This document shows, piece by piece, positions 1 to 63,268 of a stretch of 64,000 nt of DNA. The stretch is from a candidate division WOR-3 bacterium (GTDB taxonomy: Bacteria > Hydrothermota > Tepidihabitantia > SM23-42 > JAOAFX01): contig JBDRVV010000006.1 in the NCBI GenBank assembly GCA_039802005.1, positions 1-64,000 of the forward strand, given 5' to 3'. The notes under the pieces were generated by a model. It was not told the origin of the DNA and did not search any database. It was given only the letters and a program-made list of their open reading frames with translations. How positions within the stretch are numbered: the first letter of the stretch is position 1; the number at the start of each line of letters is the position of its first letter. The position numbers and the translations under genes are program-made.

Positions 1-1
1 A

Positions 2-385
2 ATGAATATTGCGAGTAAATTTATGGAGCTTGCTATTGTCAATATCGATGGTACTAATTTCCAGGTTTTAACCAACGATACCTTTCCTGATTTTGCGCCG
101 GCAATTTCACCGGATGGAAAGTTTATTGCCTTTGAGTCGGTCCGGGAACGGAACAGGGATATTTATATAATGGAAATTGAAAGTAGAAAACTAACCCGAT
201 TAACTGAACATCCTGCGGATGATTATTCACCTACCTGGTCGCCGGATGGTAAGCGTGTTGCCTTTATATCGGATCGTGATGGTCATTCGCATATTTATGT
301 GATCAATGCTGATGGGACAGGGTTGTTTCAATTGACCAAAGGTGAGTTTGAAGTCTGGCCCGGCATTTCCTGGTCCCCGAGATAA
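2..385 (+). CDS. TolB/PD40-type beta-propeller protein, C-terminal part
   Basis: This is the last 127 residues of a protein that very probably begins before the window, since the first ATG is at base 2. Three PD40/WD40-like propeller motifs are visible: SPDGKFIAFES, then SPDGKRVAFISDRDG, then a final SPR, each alternating with a strand of the type DIYIMEI or HIYVINADG. This is the pattern of TolB-like propellers found in periplasmic or secreted proteins that use the blades as a binding surface. No catalytic domain is visible in this part. The 3' end overlaps the convergent gene by 58 bases. The exact role cannot be told. Confidence 0.75.
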   Translation: MNIASKFMELAIVNIDGTNFQVLTNDTFPDFAPAISPDGKFIAFESVRERNRDIYIMEIESRKLTRLTEHPADDYSPTWSPDGKRVAFISDRDGHSHIYVINADGTGLFQLTKGEFEVWPGISWSPR

Positions 386-711
386 CTTTCCTGTGCCTTT
401 TTCGTCTTACGCATCTTTGCCCGAATTTTTCTTTTATACATTCGCCAATAGCGTCTTAATTTTTTTCTATTTTTTAAACGATAATTTTGATAATAACCCG
501 GATGTTTTTCTCTAAACCTTCGCGAATTTTCAGCGGCATGATTAGGATTATCTGTTTTTAACTTTTTGTAATAATACTTCCAATAATCAGGATGAATCTT
601 CCGCCAGTTTAAATAATAATCAGGATTTAACTGGCACCAAACACTTCTATATAATCTTGTATAATAACCATCTTCGTCATTTTTTTGATTGTTAATATCA
701 TCGTTAATCAT
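328..711 (-). CDS. small Tyr/Arg/Lys-rich protein with HPDY repeats
   Basis: A 127-residue, very basic protein. A strong AAGGAGG site lies 7 bases before the ATG at 711, which supports real translation. The middle holds degenerate repeats of the form (H/N)P(D/G)Y followed by aromatic and basic residues: NPDYYLNWRK, HPDYWKYYYKK, then HPGYYQNYRLK. The tail after about residue 108 is antisense to the neighbouring propeller gene and looks less constrained. I do not recognise a characterised family. Short proteins with comparable HPDY repeats exist as hypothetical proteins in other bacteria, from memory and unchecked. High positive charge would fit nucleic-acid binding, but that is inference only. 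Confidence 0.6.
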   Translation of the reverse strand: MINDDINNQKNDEDGYYTRLYRSVWCQLNPDYYLNWRKIHPDYWKYYYKKLKTDNPNHAAENSRRFREKHPGYYQNYRLKNRKKLRRYWRMYKRKIRAKMRKTKKAQESYLGDQEMPGQTSNSPLVN

Positions 712-974
712 TTTTTAACCTCCTTATGTTCAATTTTGTAAATTAATGTAAAAGGTATCTTTCTCAATCATTACTTTTCTCCTTTCGCCTTTAACTTTTC
801 TCTTTCAAGATTCACCTTCAACCCCTTTGTTTAACCCGCCCCGCCGGGAGGAAACAGCGGGGCGGAGGGGAGTGTGAAGGGGAGGTTTGTCCTTCACGAA
901 AAAATTAATTTTAGCCTTTTTATGCCCTTTTTAGCCCTCTGCCATACATATATAGCAAAAATCGTGCCTGCTCA

Positions 975-1125
975 AAAGTGCTGAAATTTCAACACTTTCA
1001 ATTTTTTCACTGACATTTAATGTCAGTAAGTTATCCACAAATTATCCACAAAATCGTGTAAATGCAGGACAGTTCAGCATTTTAGCCACTGACATTTTAT
1101 GTCAGTGGTTTGACATAAAATGTCA
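975..1125. repeat. cluster of four palindromes around two DnaA boxes
   Basis: Palindrome 1 (975-998) pairs AAAGTG-TGAAA with TTTCA-CACTTT with one mismatch. Palindrome 2 (1009-1027) is ACTGACATTTAATGTCAGT, perfect around a central T. Palindrome 3 (1086-1108) has 10-bp arms CCACTGACAT/ATGTCAGTGG around TTT. Palindrome 4 (1111-1125) is TGACAT-AAA-ATGTCA. Two tandem TTATCCACA boxes sit between palindromes 2 and 3. The layout resembles a protein-binding array (operator, iteron or origin-like element); no gene in the window is an obvious partner. Confidence 0.85.
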
Positions 1126-1451
1126 GTAAAACCGATTTTTGCCACTTTTTTGCAGAAAATCCTCAAACCCCATCAAATTTCAACACTTTGATATTAAAAA
1201 TCAGGGCTATTTTTGATAAAATTTGTAGTATTTTTCTATTTTTCCTACGATTAAGTCTCGTAAAAATCACAACTTTTCAGGCAAAAATCTTAAAAAAAGT
1301 TAGAAAATTTACACAAATATTTGCGATTGTTTATATTGATTTTTATTTGCTGAAAAAATTTCTGACTTTGTTTAGGCGATACAGAGAATTACATTTTGTA
1401 CAGAAAAAATTATGGTAAAAAAGGAGAATGTGAAATTTATTTGATGCGTTA

Positions 1452-1479
1452 TTGACATATTGGATTTTTTATTTATATT
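1452..1479 (+). promoter_or_regulatory. promoter of serine dehydratase gene
   Basis: TTGACA at 1452-1457, a 16-bp spacer, and TATATT at 1474-1479. The predicted transcription start falls at about 1486-1487, on the ATG itself, so the mRNA would be leaderless. No ribosome binding site is seen before the ATG. Confidence 0.75.
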
Positions 1480-1486
1480 TTAGCCC

Positions 1487-2698
1487 ATGGAGTCTATAAG
1501 GGAATTATACAGAGTTGGTAAAGGACCTTCAAGCAGTCATACAATGGGACCTTCAACCGCCGCAAGGATTTTCAAAGAAAAAAATCCTGATGCCTTAAGT
1601 TATCGTGTAACACTTTATGGTAGCCTTGCTGCAACAGGAAAGGGACATCTCACAGAACAGGCAATCAAAGAGATATTGCCTCCCCAGAATACAACGATCA
1701 TTTTTAAGAAAGAAACATTTCTACCTCAACACCCTAATGGTATGCTTTTTGAGGCAAAAAAAAAGAATGGTAAAAAAGTTAAATGGCTTGTCTTTTCAAT
1801 AGGTGGGGGCGCCATTCGCGACCTTAAATCAATCAATAAATATAAAAAAATCTATCCCCACAAAAGTTTTGAGGAAATCAATGATTTTTGTTCAAAGAAG
1901 GGAATTACTTTATATGAATATGTATTTAAGTACGAAGGTAAAGAAATCAAAAAATTTCTATCGGCTATCTGGAAATCAATGCAGGACGCGATTAGAAGAG
2001 GAATAAAGACAGAAGGAATACTTCCAGGACCGTTAAAGCTGGAAAGGAAGGCAGCATCTATTTTTATAAAGTCCTGTAATAGTCGTGGATTGATGGAAAG
2101 GATAAGCCGGGTATTTTCCTATGCCCTTGCTGTCGCTGAAGAAAATGCTGATGGTGGAATCATAGTCACTGCACCAACCTGTGGTTCAAGCGGAGTATTG
2201 CCCGCGGTATTCAAATATCTAAGCGAAAATTATAAATTTTCTGAAGAAAAAATTATAAACGCCCTTGCGATTGCCGGACTTTTTGGCAATCTTGTAAAAC
2301 ACAATGCCTCAATCTCTGGTGCTGAGGTTGGGTGCCAGGGAGAGATCGGAACCGCCTGCTCAATGGCCGCAGCAGGTGCAACATATCTCTTAGGTGGAAG
2401 TATCAAGCAAATGGAATATGCTGCTGAAATGGCGCTTGAACACCATCTTGGTCTTACCTGTGATCCGGTTGCAGGAATGGTTCAGGTTCCATGCATAGAA
2501 AGAAATGCAATGGCAGCGGAAAGGGCATTGGATTGTGCGGTATATGCACTTCAAACTGATGGAACTCATAAGATCTCTTTTGATGAGGTTGTGAGAATAA
2601 TGAAGCAAACTGGAATGGATTTAAAAATTCAATACCGGGAGACTTCTGGTGCGGGTCTTGCAACACTTCTTAAGAATAAAAAATTAACCAGAGGTTAA
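1487..2698 (+). CDS. sdaA: L-serine dehydratase, iron-sulfur type, single chain
   Basis: Converts L-serine to pyruvate and ammonia with a 4Fe-4S cluster in place of pyridoxal phosphate. The N-terminal (beta) domain carries the family motif GPSSSHTMGP at residues 13-22. The C-terminal (alpha) domain starts near residue 170 and contains APTCGSSGVLPA (about residue 230), EVGCQGEIGTACSMAAAGA and GLTCDPVAGMVQVPC, which hold the conserved cysteines. At 403 residues it is shorter than the roughly 450 of the E. coli enzyme but contains both domains, so it is the fused form. It stands alone with its own promoter. The ATG start is fixed by the promoter position and appears leaderless. It would feed serine carbon into pyruvate metabolism. 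Confidence 0.93.
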   Translation: MESIRELYRVGKGPSSSHTMGPSTAARIFKEKNPDALSYRVTLYGSLAATGKGHLTEQAIKEILPPQNTTIIFKKETFLPQHPNGMLFEAKKKNGKKVKWLVFSIGGGAIRDLKSINKYKKIYPHKSFEEINDFCSKKGITLYEYVFKYEGKEIKKFLSAIWKSMQDAIRRGIKTEGILPGPLKLERKAASIFIKSCNSRGLMERISRVFSYALAVAEENADGGIIVTAPTCGSSGVLPAVFKYLSENYKFSEEKIINALAIAGLFGNLVKHNASISGAEVGCQGEIGTACSMAAAGATYLLGGSIKQMEYAAEMALEHHLGLTCDPVAGMVQVPCIERNAMAAERALDCAVYALQTDGTHKISFDEVVRIMKQTGMDLKIQYRETSGAGLATLLKNKKLTRG

Positions 2699-11752: not shown

Positions 11753-13543
11753 ATGTCTGAAATATCAGAAAGAAAGAAATGGATTGCTGAATCCAAAGCG
11801 CGTTGCAAAAAATTGGGATTGGATCCCAATAAGCAGCGTATTACAAAATCATTGACCCGCTCTGAACTTATTCACCGACAGACAATCAATGAGTCTTTTA
11901 TAAAATCAGCGCTTCCGTATATGAAACTTTGTAGCGAAACATTTAAGTTATGCGGCTCAATAGTTGTATTAACCGATAAAGAAGGCTATATACTAAAAGC
12001 GATCGGTCCAGAATCTATTCTACAGAGCAGGCGTAAGATGGGACTTGGAGAAGGAGGGTCACTTCGCGAAGAGGATGCGGGAACAAATGCAGTAGCACTT
12101 GCCATAAAACATTTAAGGCCGGTTTATGTGGAAGGTAAAGAGTATTATTTAAAAATCTTTCAGTCCGGTGCCTGTTTTTGTGCGCCAATTATTCATAATG
12201 AAATCTTTTTGGGAACAATTGTAATAGTGCATCCGGAAAAGAAGGGACATCCCCATACCTTTACACTGGTAAAACTCCTTGCTGGAGTAATTCAAAAAGA
12301 TTACCAGAGGTCATCGGAATTAAAATTTTTTGCTGACTTATCAAAATTACTCAATTTAATTTTTGTGATTACAGATTATAAAGGTAATATAATCTGGCTT
12401 AGCGAACGTGCGAAAAAAGTGCTAAGGTGTAGCAACAAAGATAATATTACAACTAATTTTGATATTGAAATCATAACTAAAAAATCAGTTATAAATGAAG
12501 TATTTAAATCTAATAAAACCTCCTCAAAGTATTATGTATTACGAAGGGAATATGATGATAAATATATATTTATCTTTGAGCCCGTATCTGAAGAAATGAT
12601 AGAAGAAGGTGATTTCACTCCGCGGGCTCCTTATACTTTCGATGATATTATCGGATTAGAAGAAATCAAATTGAGTGCTAAGAATATAGCATTACAGGAT
12701 ACCAATCTTCTAATCATCGGGGAAAGTGGAACCGGAAAAGACCTCCTTGCTTCAGCAATTCACAACGCAAGCCCCAGGGCAAAGGAAAAATTTGTAGTGG
12801 TTAACTGTGCAGCAATACCGGAAAATCTTTTTGAGTCTGAATTGTTCGGATATAAGAGAGGCGCATTTACTGATGCCCGTTATGACAAGATAGGGAAAAT
12901 TGAATATGCAAACAACGGAACACTTTTCTTCGATGAGATTGCTGAACTGCCACCCAATGTTCAGGCTAAACTTTTGCGTGTTCTTGAAGATAAAAAAGTT
13001 ATTCCATTGGGCACTAACGAAGGACGTATTGTGAACATTAGATTTATTTTTGCTACAAATCGTAACCTTGAAGAGCTTATAGAAAGAGGTAAATTTAGAG
13101 AAGATTTATACTATCGGATACATTCACCTAAGATTGAAATTCCGCCACTCCGTGAGCGCCGTAAAGAAATACCGGTTTTAATTGAACATTTACTATTAAA
13201 AATACGCGAGAGATATAAAGGTTTTGTTTCTGGACTAACTGAACAGGCAAAAAAGGCTTTAATGGAATTTGATTATCCTGGCAATGTACGTCAGCTTGAG
13301 AAAATTTTAGAACAGGCTTTCTTGACCTGCAGAAAAGAGTATATTGATGTGGAGGATTTAGGATTAGAAATTGTTGAGCCACTTTCAATTGAGCAAAAGG
13401 TTCAACGATATAAGGCGAATCTGATTTATGAAGTTTTTATAGCCAATGGCAGAAATATTAAAAAGACTTGTTTAGAACTTGGCTTATCTGAACGTCAGGT
13501 CTATAGATATTTGAAGATGATAAAAGTGAATAACAATATATAG
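11753..13543 (+). CDS. AcoR-like sigma-54-dependent transcriptional activator
   Basis: Enhancer-binding protein that uses ATP to open sigma-54 promoters. Order of domains: N-terminal GAF-type sensor (about residues 60-190), a PAS-like domain (about 195-285), AAA+ domain (about 295-525) and a Fis-type helix-turn-helix (about 550-592). GESGTGKD is the Walker A, FDEIAELP the Walker B region. The sigma-54-contact loop reads GAFTDA where most members have GAFTGA. The layout resembles AcoR/DhaR regulators of acetoin or glycerol use, but the inducer is unknown and no sigma-54 target is evident nearby. The weak AAGGCGG site lies before the ATG. Expression is probably controlled by the upstream attenuator-like hairpin. 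Confidence 0.88.
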   Translation: MSEISERKKWIAESKARCKKLGLDPNKQRITKSLTRSELIHRQTINESFIKSALPYMKLCSETFKLCGSIVVLTDKEGYILKAIGPESILQSRRKMGLGEGGSLREEDAGTNAVALAIKHLRPVYVEGKEYYLKIFQSGACFCAPIIHNEIFLGTIVIVHPEKKGHPHTFTLVKLLAGVIQKDYQRSSELKFFADLSKLLNLIFVITDYKGNIIWLSERAKKVLRCSNKDNITTNFDIEIITKKSVINEVFKSNKTSSKYYVLRREYDDKYIFIFEPVSEEMIEEGDFTPRAPYTFDDIIGLEEIKLSAKNIALQDTNLLIIGESGTGKDLLASAIHNASPRAKEKFVVVNCAAIPENLFESELFGYKRGAFTDARYDKIGKIEYANNGTLFFDEIAELPPNVQAKLLRVLEDKKVIPLGTNEGRIVNIRFIFATNRNLEELIERGKFREDLYYRIHSPKIEIPPLRERRKEIPVLIEHLLLKIRERYKGFVSGLTEQAKKALMEFDYPGNVRQLEKILEQAFLTCRKEYIDVEDLGLEIVEPLSIEQKVQRYKANLIYEVFIANGRNIKKTCLELGLSERQVYRYLKMIKVNNNI

Positions 13544-27084: not shown

Positions 27085-27104
27085 AATGTTTCACGTGAAA
27101 CATT
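27085..27104. promoter_or_regulatory. parS centromere-like site
   Basis: AATGTTTCACGTGAAACATT, a perfect 20-bp palindrome. Its central TGTTTCACGTGAAACA (27087-27102) matches the widely conserved ParB-binding parS consensus TGTTNCACGTGAAACA. It sits at the 3' end of a barrel gene and before the thioredoxin-like gene, about 25 kb from dnaA. parA and parB are not in the window. Confidence 0.93.
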
Positions 27105-52358: not shown

Positions 52359-52394
52359 ATGTGGATAACTTTGTGGATAAATGTGGATAACTAA
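52359..52394 (+). CDS. possible 11-codon leader peptide overlapping the DnaA boxes
   Basis: ATG at 52359 follows AAGGA (52349-52353) at 5-base spacing; the frame reads MWITLWINVDN and stops with TAA at 52392-52394, two bases before the dnaA ATG. dnaA itself has no ribosome binding site, so it may be translated by reinitiation after this small frame. The frame consists almost entirely of the three DnaA boxes, so it may also be accidental. Confidence 0.4.
   Translation: MWITLWINVDN
52360..52390 (+). promoter_or_regulatory. three tandem DnaA boxes
   Basis: TGTGGATAA at 52360-52368, 52372-52380 and 52382-52390, all perfect complements of the TTATCCACA consensus and all in one orientation, ending 6 bases before dnaA. 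Suits initiation and autoregulation by DnaA. Confidence 0.93.
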
Positions 52395-52396
52395 AT

Positions 52397-53719
52397 ATGG
52401 GTGAACAAGCAAAAATATATTGGCAAAACATATTAGCATATATTAAAGAGCGGATACATCCGCAGTCATTTGCCACCTGGTTTAACCAGAGTAAAGGTAT
52501 TGAGATAAAGGATGATGTCTTGCTCGTTGAAATGCCGACCAATTTTCATATTGATTGGATAACGATGCATTATTCAAAAATTCTTGAAGAGGCGATTGGT
52601 TCGGTCAATGGCGCCAACATGAGACTTTCTTTCAAGGCAGCTAACCAGGAGGCAAATCGTCCTGTGGTCAAGAAGAAAAGAATAATTCTTTCGCATGATG
52701 TGACAAAACTCCAGGAAAGATATACTTTTGAAAATTTTGTCGTGGGCAAAAATAATGAACTTGCCCATGCTGCGGCGCTTGCTGTTGCCGAGGCACCTGG
52801 AGAGGCATACAATCCACTATTTTTATATGGTGGAGTAGGTTTAGGGAAGACCCATTTAATGCAGGCAATAGGCAATTTTATTCACAAGCAGCACAAAAAT
52901 TTAAATGTCTATTATACCCAGGCCGAGAATATAATGAATGAATTGATTGATGCAATTCAGAAAAAAGATCAATTATCTTTTAAAAAGAAATATAGAAATA
53001 AGGATATTTTATTGCTCGACGATATTCAGTTCATTTACGGAAAAGAACGTCTTCAGGATGAAATCTTTCATACCTTTGATTATCTCTATACTCAGGGGAA
53101 ACAGATTGTATTGACTTCAGACCGTCCGCCGAAAGAGCTATCTACGCTTGAAGAACGTCTTACTTCAAGATTTCAGGGAGGACTTGTTGTGGATATTCAA
53201 CCCCCTGATCTTGAAACAAGGATTGCAATTCTTCAAAAGAAAGCAGATATGGAAAATGTAAAAATACCAAATAACGTCGCATATTATATTGCATCCAGAG
53301 TAAAATCAAATATCAGAGAATTAGAAGGATGTCTCATCAGACTCCTTGCCATATCATCTCTTTCGGGACAGGAAATTAATGAGGCACTTGCTGAGGAGGC
53401 ATTAAAAGACCTCTTGGGGAACGGATACAAAGTGAGTAAAGAGAAGATAATTCAGGTTATCTGTAATGAATTTGGCTGCTCGCATGAAGATTTAAAAGGA
53501 ACAAGACGAACCCAGAGACTTGCCCTTGGAAGACAGGTTACAATGTATCTTTTACGTAACTTACTGAATTTATCACTTGCTGAAATTGGTGCGTTTCTTG
53601 GCGGAAAAGATCACAGCACGGTGATTCATGCTATAGAAAAAATCAATAATTTAAAAGAGAAAGACCCTGAATTTTCAAGATTATTAGAGCGGATAAATTC
53701 AAAGATAAATGGTGGATAA
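52397..53719 (+). CDS. dnaA: chromosomal replication initiator DnaA
   Basis: 440 residues in the usual four-domain order: N-terminal domain I (about 1-75), short linker, AAA+ domain III with Walker A LYGGVGLGKTHLMQ (about residues 140-153) and Walker B ILLLDDIQF, and DNA-binding domain IV with GKDHSTVIHAIEKI at the C-terminus. The linker (domain II) is short, about residues 78-105. The ATG at 52397 has no visible ribosome binding site and follows a mini-frame by two bases. dnaN comes next after a 193-base AT-rich gap. Confidence 0.97.
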   Translation: MGEQAKIYWQNILAYIKERIHPQSFATWFNQSKGIEIKDDVLLVEMPTNFHIDWITMHYSKILEEAIGSVNGANMRLSFKAANQEANRPVVKKKRIILSHDVTKLQERYTFENFVVGKNNELAHAAALAVAEAPGEAYNPLFLYGGVGLGKTHLMQAIGNFIHKQHKNLNVYYTQAENIMNELIDAIQKKDQLSFKKKYRNKDILLLDDIQFIYGKERLQDEIFHTFDYLYTQGKQIVLTSDRPPKELSTLEERLTSRFQGGLVVDIQPPDLETRIAILQKKADMENVKIPNNVAYYIASRVKSNIRELEGCLIRLLAISSLSGQEINEALAEEALKDLLGNGYKVSKEKIIQVICNEFGCSHEDLKGTRRTQRLALGRQVTMYLLRNLLNLSLAEIGAFLGGKDHSTVIHAIEKINNLKEKDPEFSRLLERINSKINGG

Positions 53720-53912: not shown

Positions 53913-55007
53913 ATGGAATTTAAAGTCAGTAGAATTAATTTTGAGAAAACGCTTAATAGTATTGTGAAATTAATTCCACCTAAGAGTACACACACAGTTT
54001 TACAAAATGTTATTATAGATGTTAAAAATAACATTTTGAGTATAGAAGGAACAGACCTTGATATTTTTATAAGAAAATCAATAGGTTGTGATGTTAAAAG
54101 AGAAGGTAAGGCATTATTGCCAGGAAAAAAACTTCTTGAGATTGCGCGCGAATCAAATGTTGATGAATTATCATTTAAACTTAAGGAATTGAATCTTCAA
54201 ATAAATGCCGGTAATGCACAATTTAATATTCCTGCACTTGATTATAACGAATTTCCTGAAATTCCATCTTTTCCTAAGCAGAAATGGATAACTTTAAATA
54301 TTAGTGAATTAAATGAAATGGTAGATTCAACGGTATTTATGGTCTCAAAAGATGTGAGCAGAAGGGCAATGAATGGTGTTCTGTTGCAGATAAAAGATGA
54401 TAACCTCAACATCGTTACAACCGATGGAGCACGATTGGCTTTATATAGAAAAGAATTGAAATCTGCAAATGGTGAATTAATAGTACCACCAAAGGTCTTT
54501 GATCTGCTTGATGTAAATCAATCAGAAGAACCTGTAGACATATTCATTGAAGAAAGAATGATTGGTTTGAAATTTTCTTCAACCGCAATCATTGCAAGAC
54601 TCATCGAAGGTCCTTATCCAAATTATGAAAGTGTTATTCCAAAAGTCTTTCCTGGTACCTGTACAATTGAGAAAGAAATTCTGGATGGTGCTTTAAAAAG
54701 AGTTTCTCTTGTTTCAAGTCCAACCATAAGAAGTGTAAAGTTTGACTTTGGCGGCGATAATCTATTGTTATCGGCATCGTCGCCCGATTTTGGCGAAGCC
54801 AAAGAAGAGGTACAGTGTATTTACGAAGGCGAAAAGATTTCTATCTGGTATAATGCAGGGTATCTTCTTGAGATCATAAGACGTATCCCCTCAAATGATA
54901 TTGTTTTCCAATTGACATCACCATCAACCGCCTCGCTGATAAAGCCCAAGAATATTGATAATTTATTTTATTTGTTAATGCCCTTAAGGATTGATTCATA
55001 TGAATAG
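53913..55007 (+). CDS. dnaN: DNA polymerase III beta sliding clamp
   Basis: 364 residues in three similar domains of about 120 residues. EFKVSRINFEKTLNSIVKLIP at the start and STASLIKPKNIDNLFYLLMPLRI (in parts) at the end are typical; the latter matches the common C-terminal LMPxR sequence of clamps. It clamps the DnaE polymerase to DNA. AAGGAGG precedes the ATG by 6 bases. The following small barrel gene overlaps its end by 8 bases. Confidence 0.96.
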   Translation: MEFKVSRINFEKTLNSIVKLIPPKSTHTVLQNVIIDVKNNILSIEGTDLDIFIRKSIGCDVKREGKALLPGKKLLEIARESNVDELSFKLKELNLQINAGNAQFNIPALDYNEFPEIPSFPKQKWITLNISELNEMVDSTVFMVSKDVSRRAMNGVLLQIKDDNLNIVTTDGARLALYRKELKSANGELIVPPKVFDLLDVNQSEEPVDIFIEERMIGLKFSSTAIIARLIEGPYPNYESVIPKVFPGTCTIEKEILDGALKRVSLVSSPTIRSVKFDFGGDNLLLSASSPDFGEAKEEVQCIYEGEKISIWYNAGYLLEIIRRIPSNDIVFQLTSPSTASLIKPKNIDNLFYLLMPLRIDSYE

Positions 55008-55491
55008 AAAAATTATTCTGTTATCTTTTATTGGCATATTTGTTCTTTTAAATATTGCCAATGCCCAGCATTTAGGAATTGGTATAATAATTGGTAGTCC
55101 AACTGGGTTTACTGCGAAATTTATAATGACACAAAGGTCAGCGCTCGCAGCGAATATTGGATGGTCTTTGGGAGACAATCCAAAACTTCATTTGACCTGC
55201 GATTATCAATTTCTCTTTCCTACTGTTTTGCGGTGGACCGATGATATGAATGGAGAACAGAGAGAGATAAAAAACTTAACTCCTTATATAGGAATTGGTG
55301 GAAGATTTAAATTCAAAGAAGATGAACCGGATCATAATACAGAGTTAAATATAGGACTTCGTCTTGGTGGTGGTGCGGAGTATAAGATTTCACGTTTCGG
55401 TATCTTCTTGGAGATATATCCTGTGGTCAATATCTTGCCATCCACAGATTTTGACATTGAAGGTGGGCTGGGCGCAAGAATTTATTTTTAA
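55000..55491 (+). CDS. small outer-membrane beta-barrel protein
   Basis: About 163 residues from the ATG at 55000 (AAGGA 9 bases before). Signal peptide LLSFIGIFVLLNIANAQ with an AxA-type cleavage site, followed by alternating strands (LGIGIIIGSPTGFTAKF, YIGIGGRFKF, GLRLGGGAEYKI), ending with GARIYF. The final Phe and the pattern of strands fit a small OmpA/OmpW-sized barrel. No specific function. Its placement behind dnaN, overlapping by 8 bases, may be a simple read-through unit. Confidence 0.8.
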   Translation: MNRKIILLSFIGIFVLLNIANAQHLGIGIIIGSPTGFTAKFIMTQRSALAANIGWSLGDNPKLHLTCDYQFLFPTVLRWTDDMNGEQREIKNLTPYIGIGGRFKFKEDEPDHNTELNIGLRLGGGAEYKISRFGIFLEIYPVVNILPSTDFDIEGGLGARIYF

Positions 55492-55502
55492 CAAAATAGG
55501 TA

Positions 55503-55530
55503 TTGACATTGTCTTAAAATTGATTATAAT
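55503..55530 (+). promoter_or_regulatory. rRNA promoter P1
   Basis: TTGACA at 55503-55508, 16-bp spacer, TATAAT at 55525-55530: both boxes perfect. Confidence 0.88.
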
Positions 55531-55551
55531 TGCGTTCGTGCTTTTTTGCCC

Positions 55552-55579
55552 TTGACTTTTTTAAATAATTGAATATAAT
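55552..55579 (+). promoter_or_regulatory. rRNA promoter P2
   Basis: TTGACT at 55552-55557, 16-bp spacer, TATAAT at 55574-55579, 49 bp after P1. Start at about 55586, 134 bases before the 23S gene. A hairpin AATATGG/CCATATT lies at 55657-55677 in the leader. Confidence 0.88.
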
Positions 55580-55719
55580 ATATTGCGGGGGATAAAAGAT
55601 TTTCTAAGCAGATACTCATTTCTTATATAGCAAGCGTTAAAATGGGTTCTGCTAACAATATGGTGTGAAGCCATATTTTGATCTTTGAAAATTTATAAGA
55701 ATTGGCGGAAGGATCGTGG

Positions 55720-58746
<3,027 letters not shown>

Positions 58747-58807
58747 TTCCTTCCGCCATTTTAAATTTGAAAAATGGTTAAATGAAAAAATATTTAACCA
58801 ACAGAAT

Positions 58808-58925
<118 letters not shown>

Positions 58926-59106
58926 TTTTTTATTTTTACCTTTAATTTGTTATAAATTTTTGATTATAATATTAATGATAATGGTTATCATTTTCAATAA
59001 AGAAGAAATTTATGGCTAATGGGTTTAAACATTTTCCGCTATTGAAAACTTCTGTAGGGTGAATAAAATTGTTGTTTTCTTAAAATAAAAAGAAAGAAAG
59101 GCTAAA
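58926..59106. other. spacer after 5S rRNA
   Basis: 181 bases of AT-rich sequence: the T-tract after 5S, then no clear promoter; AAAGAAAGG at about 59092-59100 is the likely ribosome binding site of the Mrp gene. Confidence 0.5.
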
Positions 59107-59955
59107 TTGAAAGTCCCAGAAGAAGAATTAAAAAGGTTAGAAATACTTTTAGAAAAAAATATGACGCAGATCACCGCGAAGATTCTTGTCCTTTCAAATA
59201 AAGGTGGTGTGGGCAAGAGTTTCGTGGCGGTAAATCTTGCTGCGGGCTTGAGTAAACTTGGAGCCAAAGTGGGAATTTTGGATGCGGATATCCATGGTCC
59301 TTCAGTTGCTAAGATGCTCGGGTTTGAAGGGAGACCGCCGATGATGGATGAAGATGGAATAATACCATTTACTGTTAATTCTAATCTCGTTGCCTTTTCA
59401 ATGGCTTCATTATTGCAGGATGCAGATACACCTGTAATCTGGCGTGGTCCTTTGAAGATGAGTGTATTGAAGCAGTTCCTTGCTGAAATAAACTGGGGTA
59501 AACTTGATTATCTGGTCGTTGATTCACCACCGGGCACCGGTGATGAGCCATTATCAGTCATTCAATTAATACGCAATCTGACCGGTGCAATCATTGTGAC
59601 CACACCCCAGGACATTGCCCTGCTTGATTCAAGAAAGTGTGTCCATTTTTTACGCCAACTTTCAACACCAATTTTGGGGATATTGGAAAATATGAGTGGT
59701 TTTGTGTGTCCACATTGTGGTAAAGAAATAGATATTTTCAAAACTGGTGGTGGAGAAAAGGCGGCAAAAGAATTGGGTGTGCCTTTCTTAGGTAGAATCC
59801 CACTGGACCCCCATATCGTAGAAAGTACTGATAATGGTAAACCGATTGTTGCACAATATCCCGATTCAAATTCAGCAAAAGTAATTATGGCTATATGCAA
59901 AGAAATAGACTCAATTGTGCGTCCAAGTGAGAAACAAGGTGGACAGTCAAAATAG
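59107..59955 (+). CDS. Mrp/NBP35-type Fe-S cluster carrier ATPase
   Basis: 282 residues. Deviant P-loop [16 protein letters not shown] (about residues 29-44), DADIHGPS, and the CxxC motif VCPHCGKEI (about residue 205) for binding a transferable 4Fe-4S cluster. It helps load clusters into target proteins such as the ferredoxins and Kor enzyme of this organism. The TTG at 59107 has AAAGG 6-8 bases before it; an ATG at 59161 lacks a site and is less likely. The N-terminal DUF59 domain of Mrp is missing, as in many anaerobes. Confidence 0.92.
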
Positions 59956-60367
59956 CATAAGACATAAAAAGAGTTATATCCTGTTTATAAACAATTCAAA
60001 AACTCAAAAAATTTATATAGGCAAACTTGGTGGATTGAAATTTTGTAAAGGTTATTATAGCTATCTTGGTTCGGCGAAGAAAAATATTTTTCAAAGAATA
60101 AAAAGACATCTGTCAAAAGATAAAAAAATTTTCTGGCATATTGATTATTTTTTAACGAATAAAAGTATAAAGATAAAAGAAATCTGGATTGGTTCAAGTC
60201 GTGAGTGTAAAATGGCACAACAGTTTCTTAAACATGGTTTTCAATATATTAACCGATTTGGTAGTTCTGATTGTGGGTGCCCCTCCCATTTATTTATTCT
60301 TGATAAAAATATGATTAGAATCAAAAACATTTTGAAAAAAAATGGATTTGAAAAATTCAACGCTTAA
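59939..60367 (+). CDS. GIY-YIG-type DUF123 nuclease-like protein
   Basis: About 142 residues from GTG at 59939; TTG at 59915 and GTG at 59927 are alternatives and none has a clear binding site. Conserved features are [20 protein letters not shown] near the start, [21 protein letters not shown] (in parts), HIDYFLTN and [13 protein letters not shown], which match the DUF123 branch of the GIY-YIG (Uri) family. These are thought to be small endonucleases; biological role unclear. It overlaps the Mrp gene and the TrmO-OsmC gene. Confidence 0.75.
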
Positions 60368-61223
60368 GCCGATAGGGATTGTCCACTCGCCATATAAATT
60401 AAAATCTGAAGCACCCCATCAGGGTGATGAGACAATAAGCGAAATTGAAATCTTACCTGAGTTTGTTGAAGGGCTCAAGGATATTAGTGGTTTTTCACAT
60501 CTCCATATCATTTATTATCTGCACCAATCAGAATCATACAGCTTAATGGTGATAACCCCTTGGGATGAAGAACAACACGGACTTTTTGCCACCAGGTCTC
60601 CGAACCGCGTAAACCCTATCGGCTATGCAGTTGTAGAACTTATCAAGAGAGATAAAAATATATTAACAGTGAAATATCTTGATGCAATTGATGGAACACC
60701 GGTTCTGGATATCAAACCTTATGTTCCAGAAATCGACATCAAAAAGGTAAAAAAGACCGGCTGGCTTGGTAAGAAATATGGCAATCTACAGCCCAGAATT
60801 TATGAATTTGAATCAAATCTTAAATTTGTTGCGGGTAAAGAACTTATTCTGAGCAGCCAAAATAAACCAAACATCATAGCCGGCTGCGCCCCTGAATTCG
60901 GCGGTAAAAAAGAATTCTGGAGTCCTCAGCACCTTTTTGTAGCATCAATTGAACTCTGTTTGGCAACGACATTTTTATGGTTGCTTGAGAAAGAGAATCT
61001 AATTATTGCAGCATATAGAAGTCATGCAGTTGGTAAGGCGCATTTGAAAAATAAAGATTTTGTGTTTAGTGAGATTTTGATTAAACCAATTATCACCATA
61101 TGTGAAAAAAATATAAAAGAAAAAATTCTCAATTTGATTCAAGAGGCAGGGCAAGAATGTATGATATCAAAATCGATTATCTGTCCCATACTCATAGAAC
61201 CAGAGATAGAGATAAGTGATTAG
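60342..61223 (+). CDS. TrmO-like methyltransferase fused to an OsmC-like domain
   Basis: 293 residues. Residues 8-135 are a TrmO (YaeB/VirR) domain: PIGIVHSPYK, GFSHLHIIYYLH, TRSPNRVNPIGYAVVELI and DAIDGTPVLDIKPYVPEID. TrmO uses S-adenosylmethionine to methylate t6A37 of certain tRNAs. Residues 153-288 form a complete OsmC-type domain with both conserved cysteines, Cys206 (ASIELCLATT) and Cys281 (IICPILIEP). No stop or frameshift separates them. ATG at 60342 overlaps the nuclease gene by 26 bases. The fusion links a tRNA modifier to a thiol peroxidase-type fold and is unusual in my knowledge. Confidence 0.85.
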   Translation: MDLKNSTLKPIGIVHSPYKLKSEAPHQGDETISEIEILPEFVEGLKDISGFSHLHIIYYLHQSESYSLMVITPWDEEQHGLFATRSPNRVNPIGYAVVELIKRDKNILTVKYLDAIDGTPVLDIKPYVPEIDIKKVKKTGWLGKKYGNLQPRIYEFESNLKFVAGKELILSSQNKPNIIAGCAPEFGGKKEFWSPQHLFVASIELCLATTFLWLLEKENLIIAAYRSHAVGKAHLKNKDFVFSEILIKPIITICEKNIKEKILNLIQEAGQECMISKSIICPILIEPEIEISD

Positions 61224-61250
61224 AAAAAGCCTTGACAATTTTATTTAGTA

Positions 61251-61278
61251 TTGATTTTTTGACTTTTCTGTGTATAAT
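61251..61278 (+). promoter_or_regulatory. promoter of the 61.3-kb gene
   Basis: TTGATT at 61251-61256, 16-bp spacer, TATAAT at 61273-61278. An ATG at 61284, 6 bases past the -10, opens a leaderless 27-codon frame that overlaps the start of the main gene in another frame. Confidence 0.7.
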
Positions 61279-61317
61279 AGGATATGGAATTATTTAAATC
61301 GGAAAAAGGAGAGTTGA

Positions 61318-61767
61318 TTGAAGGAGAGTGTAAAAAGATATCTTTATCAAAGAAAAAATCAAATTAAAATTGAAGAAGAGCCCGAGGATATTGAAAATCC
61401 TTGCGAATTCTGGCCTGATTTAAAAAAGTGTGTGGAGATCTATTTTAAGATATTTCCTGCAATGCAGCAATATCACAATGTTTTAAAAGATCCGATAGAT
61501 TTTGAATATTCCGAGAGGTTTTTAAAAGAAGTGGTAAGATACTGCACCACTAATGAATTAAAAAGAAGATTTATTGACGCCCTGACCAAGGTTGTTTATA
61601 AAATTCCGAGTGCTGGGCTGGGAGATGTTAAGATAAAAGAAATGGGTGATTTGTATCATTTTTATGTGTCTTTTTTATTCCGGGTTTATTATCGAAAGTT
61701 AGACAATAAAATCATTCTTGAAAAATTTATCCCTCATAAGAAAAAAGGGTTTGAAAGGCATTTTTGA
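61318..61767 (+). CDS. protein of unknown function, RelE-like C-terminus possible
   Basis: 149 residues. The start is TTG at 61318, with AAAGGAG 6 bases before it. The first half is acidic and aromatic (ENPCEFWPDLKKCVEIYF); the second half contains RRFIDALTKVVYKIPSAGLGDVKIKEM then LYHFYVSFLFRVYYRK and KFIPHKK, with the strand pattern of RelE/HigB-type small proteins. No antitoxin-like gene lies next to it, so a toxin role is doubtful. I do not recognise a family. Confidence 0.65.
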   Translation: MKESVKRYLYQRKNQIKIEEEPEDIENPCEFWPDLKKCVEIYFKIFPAMQQYHNVLKDPIDFEYSERFLKEVVRYCTTNELKRRFIDALTKVVYKIPSAGLGDVKIKEMGDLYHFYVSFLFRVYYRKLDNKIILEKFIPHKKKGFERHF

Positions 61768-61786
61768 GAAAATTGAAATTTTGAAG

Positions 61787-63268
61787 TTAATCGTCTTTTT
61801 TACTCGTTCCCTTCCATTTATGTAGTATTTCGTTTATTTTTTTCAAACTATTTTTGTTAGCAAGAAATAGCAATGTATCCCCAGGTTCTAAAATAGTGCC
61901 ACCACTTGGCACAATAAAATTTTCACCCCGAACAATGAGAACAATAAGACAATCCTGGGGAAAACCAATTTCTACTATTGGTTTGTTTACTACTTCAGAC
62001 TCAAAAGGTACGATCAATTCTATTAATTCAGTGTCCACACCAGGCGGTGGTTCAAATTCAATTGGTGAAATACTTTTGTTCTCCAATGGCGCACATAATC
62101 CCAAAATTCTTGAGACAACAGGAATAGACCAACCCTGGAATAACGCTGAAGTAAGGACAATAAAGAAAACAAGATTGAAAATTAACTCGGAATTATGAAT
62201 TCCTGCAAGCAGCGGGAATGTAGCAAGAATTATAGGAACTGCTCCACGCAGTCCGACCCAGGCCACAAATAATCGCTCTCGTAAACTATATTTACTCAGA
62301 AACAGTGATAGAAAAACGCTTATCGGTCGGGCAACAAACATTAAAAAAATTGATAATAAAATCCCCGCTCCCGTAACCGGTAATAAATGTGAAGGATAGA
62401 CAAGCAATCCAAGGGTCAAAAACATTGTTATCTGGCTGAGCCAGGCAAGTCCATCAAAAAATCTCAAAAGACTCTTTTTCTTAACAATCTGTGAATTACC
62501 GATAACTATACCGGCAAGATACACAGCGAGGAATCCGCTTCCATTCAAAAGATAAGTTATACCATATATCAAAAATGCTGAAGCAAGACAGAAAACAGGA
62601 TATAATCCTTCGTAAAAAAGCCTGAGTCTATTTAGAATAAAAACGACTAATTTCCCGAAAGTCAAACCTATCACTGCACCTAATCCCATTTGGAGTATAA
62701 AAAAAGTCATTATCTGTAGTGGATTATTAGCAGATGAATTAATCAACTGAATACTTGCGATGGTCAAGAAAATTGCCATTGGGTCATTGCTTCCGGATTC
62801 TAACTCCAGTAAGGGTTTTAGCGTCCCTTTTAGTTTTACATTCTTTGAGCGCAATATGGAAAAGACAGCAGGAGCATCCGTGGATGAAACAATTGAGCCG
62901 AGCATAATGCAATACAAAATTGGTATTTTCAGCACGAACGAAGCAAAAAAGCCAACAAGAATTGCGGTGGCAAAAACTCCAAATGTAGAAAGTACTATTG
63001 CATGTTTAAAAATCGGTTTTACCTGGTTCCAATTTGTATCCAATCCACCCGCAAATAATATGAAGACTAATGCAACAATACCTATAGATTGTGCCAATCT
63101 GGCGTCATCAAAATTTATTCTACCTATACCCTCGGCACCGGCGAGTATTCCTATGCCCAAAAATAGCAGCAACACGGGTATGCCAAGATAATCAAAAAAT
63201 TTGAATATCAAAATACATAGGATTATTAATATTGAAACAATCAGCAATAATATCTCTAATGAAAACAT
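61787..63268 (-). CDS. K+/H+ antiporter, NhaP2/CvrA type
   Basis: 493 residues. About 12-13 transmembrane helices to residue 390 with the CPA1 exchanger pattern; GSIVSSTDAPAVFSILR and ESGSNDPMAIFLTI hold the ion-binding aspartates. The C-terminal 100 residues contain a TrkA-C (RCK_C) domain: LIVPFESEVVNKPIVEIGFPQDCLIVLIVRG (in parts) and LEPGDTLLFLANKNS. That combination is typical of potassium/proton antiporters such as NhaP2. Start ATG at 63268 lies 8 bases past its -10 and is leaderless. Convergent with the unknown gene. Confidence 0.92.
   Translation of the reverse strand: MFSLEILLLIVSILIILCILIFKFFDYLGIPVLLLFLGIGILAGAEGIGRINFDDARLAQSIGIVALVFILFAGGLDTNWNQVKPIFKHAIVLSTFGVFATAILVGFFASFVLKIPILYCIMLGSIVSSTDAPAVFSILRSKNVKLKGTLKPLLELESGSNDPMAIFLTIASIQLINSSANNPLQIMTFFILQMGLGAVIGLTFGKLVVFILNRLRLFYEGLYPVFCLASAFLIYGITYLLNGSGFLAVYLAGIVIGNSQIVKKKSLLRFFDGLAWLSQITMFLTLGLLVYPSHLLPVTGAGILLSIFLMFVARPISVFLSLFLSKYSLRERLFVAWVGLRGAVPIILATFPLLAGIHNSELIFNLVFFIVLTSALFQGWSIPVVSRILGLCAPLENKSISPIEFEPPPGVDTELIELIVPFESEVVNKPIVEIGFPQDCLIVLIVRGENFIVPSGGTILEPGDTLLFLANKNSLKKINEILHKWKGTSKKDD

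Follow-up and report, generated by a model that had tools for sequence, protein, structure and literature searches.

A candidate family of sigma54 enhancer-promoters with tandem DnaA boxes in a candidate division WOR-3 bacterium and its relatives

The DNA analysed here (the window) covers the first 64 kb of contig C6 from a candidate division WOR-3 genome (G000; 2.54 Mb in 62 contigs, 97.6% complete). Near its start, a gene-free spacer (712–1486) precedes a small minus-strand gene (328–711). The initial annotation had reported four palindromes, two perfect DnaA boxes, a 15-base direct repeat and a GC-rich hairpin patch in or around this spacer, and all of these are present, the palindromes at 975–998, 1009–1027, 1086–1108 and 1109–1127. 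It had missed a minus-strand -24/-12 element 40–60 bp from the palindromes, an element that explains their arrangement. The features considered are as follows, with centres counted from a transcription start set 12 bases after the C of the -12 element. Comparisons draw on two congeneric sister species (G001 and G002), a genome of the same family (G003) and a genome of another family in the same order (G008).

328–711, minus strand: predicted target gene (127 aa, AAGGAGG ribosome site), uncharacterised
835–870 (approximately), minus strand: GC-rich hairpin in the predicted transcript leader, common to the G001 copy
955–968 (read 968–955), minus strand: predicted sigma54 promoter, -24/-12 element GGCACGATTTTTGC
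975–998: imperfect palindrome AAAGTGCTGAAATTTCAACACTTT, 24 bp with one mismatched pair, built around the GAAATTTC box
983–990, minus strand: GAAATTTC box, centre -43.5, also found at many sigma54-type promoters of the order
984–998, plus strand: left copy of the 15-bp direct repeat AAATTTCAACACTTT
1009–1027: operator 1 (proximal), ACTGACATTTAATGTCAGT, centre -75
1031–1039, plus strand: perfect DnaA box TTATCCACA, centre -92
1042–1050, plus strand: perfect DnaA box TTATCCACA, centre -103, 2 bp from the first and in the same direction
1061–1081: additional dyad AATGCAGGACAGTTCAGCATT, whose counterpart in two G002 copies resembles its reverse complement
1086–1108: operator 2, core TGACATTTTATGTCA, centre -154
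1109–1127: operator 3, core TGACATAAAATGTCA (15-bp core 1111–1125), centre -175
1175–1189, plus strand: right copy of the direct repeat AAATTTCAACACTTT
1190–1317: upstream flank, containing ACGAGACTTAA (near 1247–1262) like the region upstream of pilA
11753–13543, plus strand: proposed cognate activator, an AcoR/DhaR-like enhancer-binding protein with GAF, sigma54 AAA+ (PF00158) and C-terminal HTH domains
52360–52390, minus strand: oriC, three direct TTATCCACA boxes spaced by 3 and 1 bp, directly upstream of dnaA (52397–53719)

The -24/-12 element reads GGCACG-N4-TTGC and lies beside the palindromes. Its predicted transcription start is at about 943 on the minus strand, reading leftward, and the enhancer and promoter region together span 943–1127. 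The genome encodes RpoN (PF04552, E = 1.2e-46) and 11 strong enhancer-binding proteins. We searched 11 genomes for the GAAATTTC box combined with a -24/-12 pattern, using the reversed pattern as a control. G000 contains 10 such sites (0 for the control), and GAAATTTC followed by GGCAY-N5-TTGC occurs at 45 sites in 7 genomes of the order (again 0 for the control). The gap between GAAATTTC and GGCA is 10–15 bp at 31 of these sites and 21–24 bp at the other 14, with none in between. The bimodally spaced box marks sigma54 promoters across the order, and the one-turn difference in its spacing suggests contact by a protein or by the alpha-CTD. Like classical sigma54 promoters with upstream activating sequences (the NtrC, NifA, AcoR and PspF type), this one combines a -24/-12 element with dyad operators about 75–175 bp upstream, including a tandem pair two helical turns apart, in a genome with RpoN and AAA+ enhancer-binding proteins. 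Unlike them, it has the GAAATTTC box before -24, and across sites the spacing of this box takes two values that differ by one helical turn.

The three operators are near-identical copies of the consensus TGACAT-N3-ATGTCA, and operators 2 and 3 are 21 bp (two helical turns) apart. By number alone, the palindromes are unremarkable: the window contains 22 perfect dyads with arms of at least 8 bases (4–17 in simulations), and 5 of 12 simulations placed two such dyads within 150 bp. Because palindrome counts are not unusual, the argument is built on repetition, conservation and geometry. What stands above chance is the threefold occurrence of the same dyad, the fixed geometry across copies from four genomes, and the exact double DnaA box; the conserved geometry of the copies rules out pure chance. 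The additional dyad at 1061–1081 is also present within the genus in the copy alignment. Judged from these sequence features, the sigma54 promoter and its operators are almost certainly real. We also considered a structured RNA. This was rejected, as nothing in window positions 1–2000 came near the gathering score of any Rfam model, and the predicted leader folds no better than shuffled sequences (z = -0.92).

The initial annotation had raised the prospect that the palindromes belong to a dispersed repeat of hundreds of copies or are missing from sister strains. Neither was found: ACTGACAT-N3-ATGTCAGT occurs at two loci only in the 2.54 Mb (C6 and C55), and copies are present in both congeneric genomes (G001 C75; G002 C151, C120 and C76) and in one genome of another family (G008 C64, with shorter matches at C86 and C55, two in each). 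More distant genomes gave only marginal matches, in two of them. Contig C55 of G000 starts within the element, at the base equivalent to window position 1021, and its copy is 95% identical to 1021–1246. A further copy, on C39, lacks both operators and DnaA boxes: its two outer segments, including the upstream flank, are joined at the 15-bp repeat, as expected if the direct repeats had recombined. On the minus strand, GGCA(C/T)-N5-TTGC closes every complete copy. The three operators are centred at -175/-154/-75 in the window copy, in G002 C151 and C76, and in G008 C64 (where the proximal centre is -74.5). In G001 they are at -174/-153/-74. Three more G008 copies have them at -173/-151.5/-73.5, and the remaining one keeps two operators, at -95 and -73.5. 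These loci are a small paralogous family of sigma54 enhancer-promoters, and the operator array for an unknown regulator that the initial annotation had offered as one option stands, with a regulator that can now be proposed.

Across the copies, the DnaA boxes are centred at -103 and -92 (or -91). We searched for exact TTATCCACA pairs spaced by 0–6 bp, again with a reversed-pattern control. In G000, G001 and G002, such pairs occur genome-wide only at oriC and at these promoters (control 0), so that in G000 the oriC boxes are the only tandem exact boxes besides the C6 and C55 promoter copies. A laxer search allowing two mismatches gave one weak extra double box in G000, equal to the control. The same exact search of the whole G008 genome found no pair, and four of its five promoter copies are without DnaA boxes; since these copies lack them, the boxes appear to be optional, and DnaA would not be essential to the promoter design.

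One alternative keeps the same sigma54 promoter and operators and takes the boxes as a passive leftover, or as sites for another TGTGGATAA-binding protein, with DnaA having no role. The box-less G008 copies favour it, as does the fact that the evidence for DnaA comes from sequence. Against it, all 18 box bases are kept in each of the six genus copies retaining the segment, despite an overall identity of only 73–76% to the G002 copies. The spacing moves between 2 bp (four copies) and 3 bp (two copies) while the boxes stay unchanged, and E. coli DnaA prefers box pairs spaced by 2 or 3 bp, an additional base causing a large drop in binding (PMC11317965). The oriC has the same tandem arrangement. 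We consider a DnaA-free reading unlikely, at about one chance in four, and DnaA itself a likely ligand of the boxes. That DnaA is functional at the promoter is more tentative, a proposition at or slightly under even.

The boxes occupy the place of IHF in classical sigma54 promoters, where enhancer looping is usually IHF-assisted (PMC7057263, PMC7175178); a tandem DnaA double box at the usual place of this looping helper sets the promoter apart from the NtrC, NifA, AcoR and PspF type. Closely spaced boxes upstream of a promoter are shared with DnaA-regulated promoters of E. coli (PMC11317965), including the 2–3 bp spacing, and of Caulobacter (PMC4287350). Those known cases are mainly nucleotide, replication, repair and cell-cycle genes, whereas the boxes described here are part of a sigma54 enhancer that serves peptide-maturation clusters. 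Separately, G003 and G008 have a double DnaA box with one mismatch between metallo-hydrolase-like and MoxR-type ATPase genes (L162 1501–1520 and L163 1501–1520), possibly a second DnaA-controlled locus.

For the regulator, the best candidate is the AcoR/DhaR-like protein encoded at 11753–13543. It shares with such proteins a GAF-type sensor, a sigma54 AAA+ domain and a C-terminal HTH, the last only weakly matched in Pfam. The NCBIfam DhaR model aligns along residues 10–549, below every curated equivalog cut-off. It differs from AcoR/DhaR-like proteins in this respect, in its proposed control of a dispersed promoter family instead of a neighbouring catabolic operon, and in its L1 loop, which is GAFTDA instead of GAFTGA in all 7 orthologs. 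The loop counts against the candidate, although two more G000 activators have it, of which the one on C36 adjoins its own sigma54 promoter. Of 61 genomes, 7 have an ortholog (E ≤ 1e-120); these include each of the four that carry copies with operators, and G003, of the same family, has neither an ortholog nor promoter copies. In the window's genus, the activator gene does not adjoin the clusters, which also counts against it; in G008 the distance to one cluster promoter is 1.9 kb, and the gene stands beside an AsnC-type gene, a position that may be ancestral. We searched G013, G015 and G023 for operators of the activator orthologs; in G013 this gave two sigma54-type promoters whose palindromes are of another kind and could not be assigned to the activator.

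The operators and the recognition helix vary together. In two G002 copies, all three dyads read GTCTCA-N4/5-TGAGAC, and the recognition helix of the G002 activator starts with a change of two residues (SER to SRA), giving SRAQLYR in place of SERQVYR (G000), SERQIYR (G001) or SIRQVYR (G008). G001 and G008, with TGACA operators, keep RQ-V/I-YR. The C120 copy of G002 still has TGACAT at the proximal site, with decayed distal sites of the new type. PilR of the same genomes has the helix SRATLYR (SRSTLYR in G002), with ATGAGAC half-sites before pilA, a pairing that matches that of SRAQLYR with ATGAGAC in G002. Because operators and helix changed together in G002, the 11753–13543 protein is the likely cognate activator, and both this covariation and the co-occurrence of gene and promoter copies favour the pairing on sequence comparison; we put its probability on a level with that of DnaA as the ligand of the boxes.

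A different enhancer-binding protein, such as one of the giant kinase-type activators, could instead be the cognate activator. Recognition helices of the giant proteins change fast, also between species, so a helix change is not unique to 11753–13543, and these activators adjoin promoters with private palindromes. However, several other activators have their own adjacent operators, and the patterns of helix, operator, and presence or absence best fit the 11753–13543 protein. Among nine ortholog groups compared across the three congeners, the helix is unchanged or nearly so in seven; that of the giant kinase-type group differs in each species, and that of the window activator in G002 only. We regard another activator as improbable, roughly a one-in-five prospect. 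Two loci illustrate the giant type (L041 6830–11704 and L042 3085–7914): by reading, each encodes an activator of about 1600 aa that combines protein kinase, TPR-like, GAF-like and sigma54 AAA+ regions. Behind each activator gene come a sigma54-type promoter, which has palindromes of its own, and an HD-GYP-like gene.

The reading we prefer joins the sigma54 promoter, the 11753–13543 activator, and DnaA between enhancer and promoter as a DNA bender or cell-cycle gate; taken whole, we consider it very probable. The promoter would be read leftward on the minus strand, from about 943 into the small gene 328–711. Dimers of the AcoR/DhaR-like protein would bind the palindromes at -75, -154 and -175 and form a ring, which DNA looping would bring to the promoter, and the ring would then open the sigma54-RNA polymerase complex held at -24/-12. 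Two DnaA molecules would occupy the tandem boxes at -92 and -103, between the distal enhancer pair and the promoter, and would either bend the DNA, taking the classical place and role of IHF, or gate the promoter by replication state; DnaA may either help or block the promoter. If so, the system would join the replication initiator DnaA with the sigma54/enhancer machinery, offer a natural experiment on the joint change of an activator's recognition helix and its operators between sister species, and yield a predicted regulon for a phylum with hardly any cultured members. A literature search, mostly of journals open without subscription, found no description of a promoter combining DnaA with the sigma54/enhancer machinery.

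The genes behind the promoters suggest what such a regulon may contain. After the G001 C75 promoter come a radical-SAM peptide maturase, an S41 peptidase, a DUF5916 protein and an ABC exporter, and similar gene sets stand at G002 C76 and at G008 C86 and C55. Together with G000 C55, where the radical-SAM cluster genes are on the upstream side of the promoter copy, these are the copies found within or next to radical-SAM/SPASM peptide-maturase clusters. The maturases have strong NCBIfam matches to RiPP maturases (E down to 4e-80), all below curated equivalog cut-offs, so by sequence they are judged to be relatives of RiPP maturases and not members of the named equivalogs. The window copy precedes 328–711 instead of a peptide cluster, which counts against the preferred reading. 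The product of 328–711 is a basic, aromatic-rich repeat protein (rich in Tyr, Trp, Arg and Lys) with nothing significant in Pfam or NCBIfam; a degraded or broken relative stands behind the promoter copy of G002 C120, and weak relatives occur in G016 and G021. A literature search on WOR-3 and sigma-54, or on sigma54 and radical-SAM RiPPs, found nothing relevant. We tentatively suggest, at somewhat under even odds, that DnaA is the architectural or gating protein of the sigma54 enhancer, that firing of the RiPP-type clusters in this WOR-3 lineage is coupled to replication initiation, and that its exact-match DnaA regulon is essentially oriC and this promoter family.

The dispersed copies at unrelated sites, the 15-bp direct repeats and the contig breaks within copies could also fit a non-coding, MITE-like mobile element or a replicon remnant, its palindromes serving its own movement or replication. 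However, the copy alignment showed no common ends and its homology is centred on the promoter and operators, the copies stand before genes, and duplication of a cluster plus its promoter suffices to explain the spread. Plasmid and phage collections gave no match to the locus, and a viral contig with tandem TGACAT palindromes was rejected, as the rest of the layout was missing. With a sigma54 promoter in all complete copies as well, the replicon remnant proposed in the initial annotation is not supported, and we consider a mobile origin of this kind very improbable.

Loci of the datA/DARS type are characterised by a larger cluster of DnaA boxes with an IHF site, or by the DARS arrangement of boxes. 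A second origin, or a DnaA-titration or reactivation locus of the datA/DARS type, is the least probable reading of all, almost negligibly so: there are two perfect boxes here, on the oriC contig (51 kb away in G000 and 20 kb in G002), but they form only a single tandem pair, recur in several copies per genome on different contigs and always stand at the same distance from the sigma54 promoter. The second DnaA-binding locus of the initial annotation probably survives as a DnaA-responsive promoter and falls as datA, DARS or an origin. A cluster of at least three boxes, with dnaA and a skew change, was found at 52.36 kb instead, and its arrangement is conserved in G001 and G002. GC skew changes sign at oriC/dnaA (about 52 kb); the other point proposed for the skew comparison, at 1 kb, is the contig end, as the contig starts at base 1.

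Three further observations concern the window and its relatives. First, 23S and 5S rRNA genes lie at 55720–58925, with no 16S gene found in 54500–62000, and the rRNA operon may be split. Second, the PilR-pilA pair (L044 8400–8720, L148 and L150) has a conserved ACGAGACTTAAGTGTCGCAAAATGAGAC upstream, with ACGAGACTTAA in common with the window's flank. Third, a perfect palindrome, AATGTTTCACGTGAAACATT, with a canonical parS (ParB) site lies at 27085–27104, about 25 kb from oriC.
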